Source: Parapontixanthobacter aurantiacus
GTDB lineage: Bacteria; Pseudomonadota; Alphaproteobacteria; Sphingomonadales; Sphingomonadaceae
Direction: 5' to 3'
DNA length: 64,000 nt
NCBI RefSeq assembly: GCF_009827635.1
Contig: NZ_WTYW01000004.1
Location: 1 to 64,000 of the forward strand
In this document: positions 36,936-39,085 of the stretch, piece by piece
How positions within the stretch are numbered: position 1 is the stretch's first letter
Layout of the letters: each line of letters begins with the position of its first letter
Made by a program: the position numbers and the translations under genes
Notes under the pieces: model-generated
Database searches by the model: none
The model's input: the letters and a program-made list of their open reading frames with translations, nothing else
Told to the model about the DNA's origin: nothing

Positions 36936-38207
36936 TTAATCCGCGACATAATCCAGCGGGTCGACGGGTTTGCCGGCGCGGCGCAACTCGAGCAGCACTT
37001 CCGGTTCGGCGGCAGAAGCGCGGCCGATGGGGCCTCCGCTGGCGAGCAGATCGCCGATGGCAACGTCGAGGCTTTCGAGACCGGTAACGAGACTGGTCCA
37101 GCCTGCGCCATGCTCGATGATCGCGATCCGGCCATAGCCGCGGTATGGTCCGGCAAAGACGACCCTGCCTGCCGCCGGGGCGACGACCTGTGCTTCTGCA
37201 GCGGGTTCGAGGACGATGCCCGACCGGCGCAAGCCGCCCCGCCCGCGTTCGCCGAATTCGCCAGTAACCCTTCCCACGACCGGCAAGCGATAGGCGCGCG
37301 GACCTGCGGTCGCAGCCGCCTCGATTCGCGATGCGCCGCTCCCCTTCATCGACGCGGCAATGCGCTGCGTCGTGGGGTCAGCGGGTCGCATGATCGGACC
37401 AGAGAGCCGCGCCAGTTCGGCTTCCTCCTCCCCGGCCCGGTCGAGCCGGGCGATAAGACCGTCGAGACTGCTTGCTTGTTCGGCAAAACGCGCCGCCTTC
37501 TCCGCTTCCAGTTGCGCATCGCCAAACGCACGTTCTGAGGCCAGGCGCTGCCGCCGGGTGGACGCAATGAGTTGTGCACGCCGCCGTGCCAGCACGGTCT
37601 CGTTCTTTGCGAGTGCGGCCAAAGTCTGCACCGATTCGCGAGACAATTGGCGTACACGCTCGCGCTGGTCGCGCAGGCTTGTCGTCTTTTCGCGAATGGC
37701 GGGAATTGTCTGGTCGAGCACAGCACGCAGATAAACCGTCTCGCGCAACGAGCCTGGTTGAAGCGCGGACAGCGCGAGCGGCCGGGCCGTCAGTCGCTGC
37801 AAGGCGGCGGTCAGCTGCACGACAGGCTCGCGCTTGTCGCCCAGTTGCCGCTCCAGCGTGCGGCGCTCCTTGCGGATAAGGTTCAGCCGGGAGCGCGCCG
37901 ATGCAAGGCTCGCCTCGACCGTCTGGATCTGCGCTGCCAGCAGGGCCACTTCGCTCTGCGCTTTCTCCGCTGCAAACTCTGCATCTTCCGCTTGCCGGAG
38001 AAGCTCCTGTTCTCTTTCCCTTGCAACCCGCGCGCGATCCTGCGCGGCGGCGTATTGCTGTCGTGCCTCGCGCAAGCTTTGGGTCGTGGACAAGCCGCTA
38101 TCTGACCGATCGTCCTGCGCACCCAGCGGGTTGCGAGCGAAAACGAGCAACGCGGCGCAGACCGTTGTGGCAAGTATCACGGACATGGTGGGCGACGGGC
38201 GGGACAT
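36936..38207 (-). CDS. EnvC-like murein hydrolase activator with degenerate LytM domain
   Basis: The 423-residue product has a signal or anchor segment near the N-terminus (VILATTVCAALLVFA), a long coiled coil (about 45-250) and a C-terminal LytM-like domain (RVTGEFGERGRGGLRRSG). The usual zinc ligands are missing: the H-x-G-x-D stretch reads R-S-G-I-V and the final H-x-H reads L-E-L. So it should bind and switch on an amidase rather than cut peptidoglycan, as known for E. coli EnvC. ATG 38207 is chosen for its AGGAG at 38212-38216; an ATG at 38225 overlaps the rlmH stop. Confidence 0.88.
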   Translation of the reverse strand: MSRPSPTMSVILATTVCAALLVFARNPLGAQDDRSDSGLSTTQSLREARQQYAAAQDRARVAREREQELLRQAEDAEFAAEKAQSEVALLAAQIQTVEASLASARSRLNLIRKERRTLERQLGDKREPVVQLTAALQRLTARPLALSALQPGSLRETVYLRAVLDQTIPAIREKTTSLRDQRERVRQLSRESVQTLAALAKNETVLARRRAQLIASTRRQRLASERAFGDAQLEAEKAARFAEQASSLDGLIARLDRAGEEEAELARLSGPIMRPADPTTQRIAASMKGSGASRIEAAATAGPRAYRLPVVGRVTGEFGERGRGGLRRSGIVLEPAAEAQVVAPAAGRVVFAGPYRGYGRIAIIEHGAGWTSLVTGLESLDVAIGDLLASGGPIGRASAAEPEVLLELRRAGKPVDPLDYVAD

Positions 38208-38224
38208 GGCGCTCCTATGCCCCA

Positions 38225-38647
38225 TTATCCGCTGCGATGGTAGGGATGGCCGGCAAGGATCGTCGTCGCGCGGTAGATCTGCTCGGCGAGCATCGCGCGC
38301 ACCATCAGATGCGGCCAGGTCGCCTTGCCGAACGAAATGAGCATATAGGCGTCGGAACGGTCCTCAGCCGAATGGCCGTCGGCCGCTCCGATCATGAAGC
38401 GCGTCTCGCGAATGCCGTCCTCTCGCCAGCGCCCCAACAAATCCGCCAGCTCTTCGGACGAGAGGTTCTTACCCCTCTCGTCGAGCAGTATAGTTCGACA
38501 CGGCGTCAGCGCTTCAGGAATGCGCCCGCCCGTTTCCGGCAGTTCGGTCACACGCAGCGCATCGCCGAGGCGTTTTTCGTAGCGCTCGACAAGTTCACGT
38601 TCCGGCGAGCGGCCGATTTTGCCGCGCGCAATGATGTGAAAGAGGAT
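38225..38647 (-). CDS. rlmH: 23S rRNA (pseudouridine1915-N3)-methyltransferase RlmH with apparent ATC start
   Basis: The SPOUT enzyme methylates pseudouridine 1915 of 23S rRNA. The diagnostic C-terminus is present (LAEQIYRATTILAGHPYHR). The family N-terminus (M-L-L-H-I-I-A-R-G-K) is encoded here as I-L-F-H-I-I-A-R-G-K. The codon at the Met position is ATC (38647-38645), five bases after GGGAGG. No ATG, GTG or TTG exists between the in-frame rsfS stop and a GTG at 38551, and that GTG would remove the first 32 residues, including the first strand of the fold. With ATC the protein is 140 residues, near the normal length. Confidence 0.85.
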   Translation of the reverse strand: MLFHIIARGKIGRSPERELVERYEKRLGDALRVTELPETGGRIPEALTPCRTILLDERGKNLSSEELADLLGRWREDGIRETRFMIGAADGHSAEDRSDAYMLISFGKATWPHLMVRAMLAEQIYRATTILAGHPYHRSG

Positions 38648-38671
38648 TGCCGCCTCCCGAACGCAGGCGCG

Positions 38672-39085
38672 TCAGGCCGAGCCGGCAGCTACCGGAGGAG
38701 CGTCGCCAAAGGCCCACATCCGCTCTAGGTTGTAGAAGCTGCGCACTTCGGGCCGGAACAGGTGCACGACCACATCGCCTGCATCGACGAGCACCCAGTC
38801 GGCTGCCGGCAAGCCTTCGATCCGCACCGGGCCGAGGCCCGCCTGCTTGATCGTCTCGCTCAGCTTCTGTGCGATTGCGGCGACCTGCCGGGTCGATCGA
38901 CCCGACGCGATCACCATGTGGTCGGCAATGGAGGATTTGCCCTCGAGCGGGATCGAAACGACTTCCTGCGCCTGGTTTTCGTCCAGTTGCGACATGACCA
39001 GCTCGTGCAAGGCATCGTCGCGCTGCGTCGCCGGGTTCGTTCCGTTCTGACCGGCCTTGGCCGGATCGGTATGCGCCTCTGTCAT
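38672..39085 (-). CDS. rsfS: ribosome silencing factor RsfS
   Basis: The 137-residue product matches the RsfS/Iojap family: LDENQAQEVVSIPLEGKSSI, ADHMVIASGRSTRQVAAIA, PAADWVLVDAGDVVVHLFRP and EVRSFYNLERMW. RsfS binds uL14 on the 50S subunit and blocks subunit joining in starvation. It sits between nadD and rlmH, a common order. Its TGA is in frame with rlmH and followed by C. Confidence 0.95.
   Translation of the reverse strand: MTEAHTDPAKAGQNGTNPATQRDDALHELVMSQLDENQAQEVVSIPLEGKSSIADHMVIASGRSTRQVAAIAQKLSETIKQAGLGPVRIEGLPAADWVLVDAGDVVVHLFRPEVRSFYNLERMWAFGDAPPVAAGSA

Follow-up and report, generated by a model that had tools for sequence, protein, structure and literature searches.

To our knowledge, natural translation starts at AUU or AUC have been documented in only a few genes. 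The pcnB gene of Escherichia coli, which encodes poly(A) polymerase I, a low-dose RNA-acting enzyme, starts with AUU. In Staphylococcus aureus, cvfC1 (AUU), ccpN (AUA) and citZ (AUA) combine non-canonical starts with strong Shine–Dalgarno (SD) sequences; ribosome profiling and reporters put the AUU/AUA starts at about 10–30% of AUG output, the conserved ones giving about 10%, and those of cvfC1 and ccpN are reported to be conserved among relatives (PMC13009471). The classic gene with an AUU, AUC or AUA (AUH) start is infC, which encodes IF3; in E. coli it is autoregulated, and Streptomyces sigR has a conserved GTC start that is repressed by IF3 and was overlooked by annotation (PMC5472188). 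Switches of this kind appear rare, with one AUG-to-AUU change found among 61,358 ancestral AUG starts, a figure that depends on annotation and may undercount (PMC5622118).

The window analyzed here, a 64,000-nt stretch of Parapontixanthobacter aurantiacus (GCF_009827635.1; NZ_WTYW01000004.1, positions 1–64,000), contains on its minus strand an rlmH gene (38225..38647, 140 residues) predicted to encode the 23S rRNA pseudouridine-1915 N3-methyltransferase. The protein matches PF02590 over profile positions 3–154 of 154 (E=3.4e-33; 115.8 bits, cut-off 27), and this is the only PF02590 match in the whole 2.9-Mb genome, indicating that the genome has no further rlmH copy with an ordinary start and that this is its sole RlmH. 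All nine NCBIfam matches were RlmH models, each under its curated cut-off; the best equivalog, NF000989, reached 142.4 bits where its cut-off requires 169. The C-terminus, GHPYHRSG, retains the Y-H-R tail, whose counterparts in E. coli RlmH (Y152, H153 and R154) are needed for catalysis (PMC5430550). According to the same study, RlmH is a small dimeric enzyme whose substrate is the assembled 70S ribosome, which it methylates at a kcat of a few per minute. When solved-structure sequences were searched, the C-terminal two thirds aligned well and residues 4–45 weakly, so that the structure search alone does not settle the N-terminus.

The reading frame opens with ATC CTC TTT CAC ATC ATT GCG CGC GGC AAA, reads ILFHIIARGK... 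and ends with TAA at 38227–38225. Upstream lies rsfS, the ribosome silencing factor gene (38672..39085, minus strand, an open frame of 137 aa), homologs of which adjoin rlmH in nearly all relatives; its TGA (38674–38672) stands 24 nt 5′ of the ATC in the same phase and is followed by CGC GCC TGC GTT CGG GAG GCG GCA. These eight sense codons include no ATG, GTG, TTG or CTG, whereas they do contain a putative SD sequence, GGGAGG (38653..38658, minus strand), separated from the ATC by a 5-nt gap. Downstream of the ATC, the earliest canonical in-frame start is the GTG of codon 33 (38549..38551, minus strand). The earlier note, made from the letters alone, had placed an ATC start at 38647–38645 in this setting, with no ATG, GTG or TTG before the GTG at 38551; every detail of that reading was recovered in the sequence, and the stretch free of these codons reaches from the upstream in-frame stop to codon 33. 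RNA structure over the start site was unremarkable (z −0.49 and 0.67), and a search for a promoter or terminator between rsfS and rlmH found none. On the other side of the gene, the rlmH stop overlaps the ATG of a 429-aa open frame (36936..38225, minus strand), named from sequence reading as a murein hydrolase activator (EnvC/peptidase M23)-like gene, in a TAATG at 38223–38227, which suggests translational coupling 3′ of the weak rlmH start.

The first codon of rlmH was aligned over loci from two collections, giving 144 distinct Sphingomonadaceae genes, the window included, after removal of duplicates. The column of Met-1, into which the ATC of the window falls (38645..38647, minus strand) alongside the ATG and other start codons of its relatives, held ATG in 78 genes, GTG in 19, ATC in 16, ATT in 14, TTG in 14 and CTG in 3. 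In 143/144 genes it was restricted to these six codons; the remaining gene, L148, departs from this in appearance only, as its ATG lies one codon upstream. Other columns of the same protein behave differently: at columns 5, 6 and 11, where Ile, Val or Leu also stand, GTC, GTT, ATA and CTC occur without restriction, and most Leu codons are represented at columns 2 and 3, in ordinary synonymous mixtures that include CTC and TTA. Six start-like codons at Met-1, set against synonymous mixtures elsewhere, are the signature of an initiation codon. An exact-context pattern search for ATH (ATT, ATC or ATA) starts hit 19/399 genomes of the family in 10/96 genera, and in those genomes the reversed control pattern gave a zero count. 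These figures are minimum estimates, since a match requires one fixed peptide context. Among 70 loci across the class, nearly all from outside the family and read by eye, none had ATT or ATC at this position. Cultured carriers include Qipengyuania mesophila, Q. pacifica, Q. citrea and Aurantiacibacter odishensis, as well as Erythrobacter dokdonensis, E. fulvus and E. cryptus.

The codons that follow the ATC are apparently translated. No ATG, GTG or TTG lies upstream in the open frame in 23/30 of the ATT/ATC genes (an upstream in-frame canonical start exists in the other 7/30, the window not among them), and in L032 an in-frame TAG stands directly 5′ of the ATC, with AAGGAGG upstream. Between the ATT/ATC genes and their nearest relatives with other starts, pN/pS was 0.146 over codons 2–32 and 0.277 over the remainder of the gene; among the ATT/ATC genes themselves the values were 0.164 and 0.241. 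Such strong purifying selection implies that codons 2–32 are translated. Together with the six-codon Met-1 column and the SD sequence ahead of the codon, it argues that the ATC is the initiation codon, as the note had proposed, and that rlmH in the window almost certainly begins at 38647–38645.

We consider it very probable, on this comparative evidence, that the ATC is the true start and is tolerated as a weak start of a low-dose enzyme. In this explanation, GGGAGG 5 nt upstream would set AUC in the ribosomal P site, and the initiator fMet-tRNA would read it with a third-position mismatch, presumably giving a protein that begins fMet-LFHIIARGK. The weak start would lower the yield of RlmH, which should be bearable for a low-abundance catalytic enzyme, since with turnover at a few per minute a small amount ought to suffice. 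If a low yield is tolerated, the start codon would be free to drift repeatedly, and in Erythrobacteraceae it does appear to drift among AUG, GUG, UUG, CUG, AUC and AUU. Granted the ATC start, a tolerated weak start with no dedicated circuit behind it is the probable reading. IF3 and recycling factors disfavor pairings that are weak at the third position, such as that of AUU with CAU (PMC10158994), so some IF3 sensitivity of rlmH is to be expected, and IF3-sensitive initiation is plausible.

A strong SD sequence perhaps partly offsets the weak rlmH start. In the window, pairing of GGGAGG with ACCUCCUUA was estimated at −9.8 kcal/mol; the 16S 3′ end of this genome is masked, as its rRNA operon is given as N at 1502–6501 of L301. 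An SD sequence at −5 kcal/mol or better was found in 27/30 of the ATT/ATC genes versus 36/78 of the ATG genes (p=2e-5). With phylogeny controlled, 6.0 independent pairs spoke for this contrast and 1.1 against it (median p 0.125, not significant), and because the contrast fades in this way compensation is suggested rather than shown. The pattern matches that reported for GUG and UUG starts (PMC5622118), and AUU/AUA starts with strong SD sequences in S. aureus show a similar one (PMC13009471).

The rsfS–rlmH spacers carry features of their own. In many Erythrobacteraceae (L006, L060, L074, L081, L159 and others, but not the window) they measure about 110–170 nt and contain a GC-rich element resembling a hairpin, around CGTCCTCGG...CTGCGGGCGGCCGGTCGGCCTTGCGG, which occurs in both orientations and also in a few other places; comparison of this element with Rfam returned no matching family. 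The spacers of L032 and L054, at 377 and 354 nt, contain an apparent small protein with paired cysteines (C-G-x-C ... C-x-x-C) before the ATC. A link between ATT/ATC starts and long spacers, seen in raw medians of 133.5 versus 61 nt, was rejected because it vanishes with phylogenetic control.

The history of the codon bears most directly on the strongest competing explanation, a dedicated IF3 switch in which AUC or AUU is kept so that most RlmH is produced while free IF3 is scarce, as in infC and sigR. AUC and AUU belong to the class of starts that IF3 represses (PMC5472188, PMC10158994), infC of this clade begins with ATA, and the substrate of RlmH is the 70S ribosome (PMC5430550). In a phylogeny built from NadD, RsfS and RlmH in concatenation, with residue 1 excluded, one supported clade of 12 contains 10 ATT/ATC genes, with one ATG and one TTG. 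The ATT/ATC state is indeed clustered relative to shuffles (mean 27.5 changes), yet it does not form one clade: moving between the ATT/ATC and NTG states takes at least 19 changes, 14 of them forced by well-supported (starred) branches, and the six start codons together need 41. Sister species carry ATG, GTG or TTG, and AUA, the codon of infC, never occurs at rlmH. The rlmH start codon is thus labile and that of infC fixed, a difference more in keeping with a weak start that is tolerated than with a conserved feedback loop through IF3. A dedicated circuit predicts a conserved weak start; conservation was tested and the codon was found to change, leaving such a circuit unsupported. The suggestion in the earlier note that rlmH is under the same control as infC, which was ATA in 30/30 genomes, is likewise not supported, and we regard a dedicated switch as unlikely. 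A looser version, in which AUC or AUU links the dose of RlmH to free IF3 in a subset of Erythrobacteraceae and lineages repeatedly gain and lose the coupling, also seems doubtful; if true, it would couple a ribosome-finishing methylation to the supply of initiation factor.

The other explanations would do away with the ATC start itself. Misreading of an original ATG or GTG as ATC during sequencing or assembly of this genome would take only a single base, and the closest neighbor of the window on the tree (L163) does start with GTG; however, 29 further distinct genes from many assemblies, including several cultured strains, carry ATT or ATC at the same codon, and the pattern scan across the family agrees, making an error very improbable. 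Translation of a truncated RlmH from the GTG at 38551, with the first 32 codons left untranslated, has in its favor that this is the earliest canonical start in frame, the one an automatic gene caller would probably pick. Against this, codons 2–32 are the most constrained part of the ATT/ATC genes and the missing part holds strand beta1 of the SPOUT fold (PMC5430550). Relatives starting at the same GTG were sought and did not turn up; the next downstream canonical start falls at a different codon in each species (codons 3, 19, 20, 27, 31, 33, 36, 53–55, 62 and 79). We judge the GTG not to be the true start and give truncation slightly less credence still than an error. Least credible of all is an RsfS–RlmH fusion by readthrough of the rsfS TGA, for which the frames in the window are in phase with just the eight sense codons between TGA and ATC, because the spacing from the rsfS stop divides 10/10/10 among the three phases in the 30 ATT/ATC genes, so that the shared phase in the window is accidental, the spacers range from 1 to 377 nt, and L032 has its TAG immediately before the ATC.

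Two screens of about 540 conserved ORFs, drawn from two sets of 20-kb neighborhoods, looked for conserved sequence 5′ of the first canonical start. In the first set (322 conserved ORFs from 20 relatives and the window), the credible cases were rlmH in the ATT/ATC genomes and nadD in three genomes, and in the second (218 ORFs around infC) infC was the sole credible gene. On inspection by eye, the other flags in both screens were judged to be shadow frames or conserved DNA preceding a normal start, so that the screens serve as a guide and give no genome-wide rate. The start of infC was ATA, behind CAGGAG-type SD sequences, in all 30 Erythrobacteraceae genomes (L113–L142), including that of the window, where the gene lies beyond the window (L113, G000:C1, about 1638825); as a positive control, this indicates that the clade can make use of AUH starts. 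Seven of 99 nadD loci (L058, L061, L064, L082, L147, L155 and L156) have no ATG, GTG or TTG before the conserved N-terminus, and in these nadD appears from the sequence to begin with CTG. This codon often stands in a CTGA, a candidate overlap with the stop of the upstream gene, proA. In three Sphingomonas-type loci (L086, L098 and L100), the rlmH CTG lies one base past a TGA (TGAGCTG) that is probably the rsfS stop, and coupled re-initiation at CUG is possible there.

The literature searched, mostly without subscription journals, contained no earlier report of an AUC or AUU start for rlmH. The phenomenon is wider than the earlier note supposed, reaching at least 10 genera. Gene callers restricted to ATG, GTG and TTG would truncate or miss rlmH in many of these genomes. 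The switches between ATT/ATC and NTG, at least 19 in number, provide a set of naturally occurring, related ribosome-binding sites with different start codons, which could show what allows initiation at a non-AUG codon and whether stronger SD pairing compensates for it.

Compared with the known systems, rlmH adds a further gene to a known class of start codon and stands out for frequent switching within one family. It resembles infC in placing an AUH codon behind a good SD sequence in a translation-related gene, both being present in the genome of the window, but infC keeps its ATA and is autoregulated in E. coli (PMC5472188), whereas rlmH changes its codon repeatedly, never to ATA, and no role of RlmH in initiation is known. 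With pcnB it shares an AUH start on a low-dose RNA-acting enzyme, in a different gene and lineage. It differs from the S. aureus cases, which were shown by ribosome profiling and reporters, in that its codon is labile and is proposed here from sequence comparison. Finally, rlmH and sigR both have non-canonical starts, that of sigR being GTC and conserved and that of rlmH AUC or AUU and labile.
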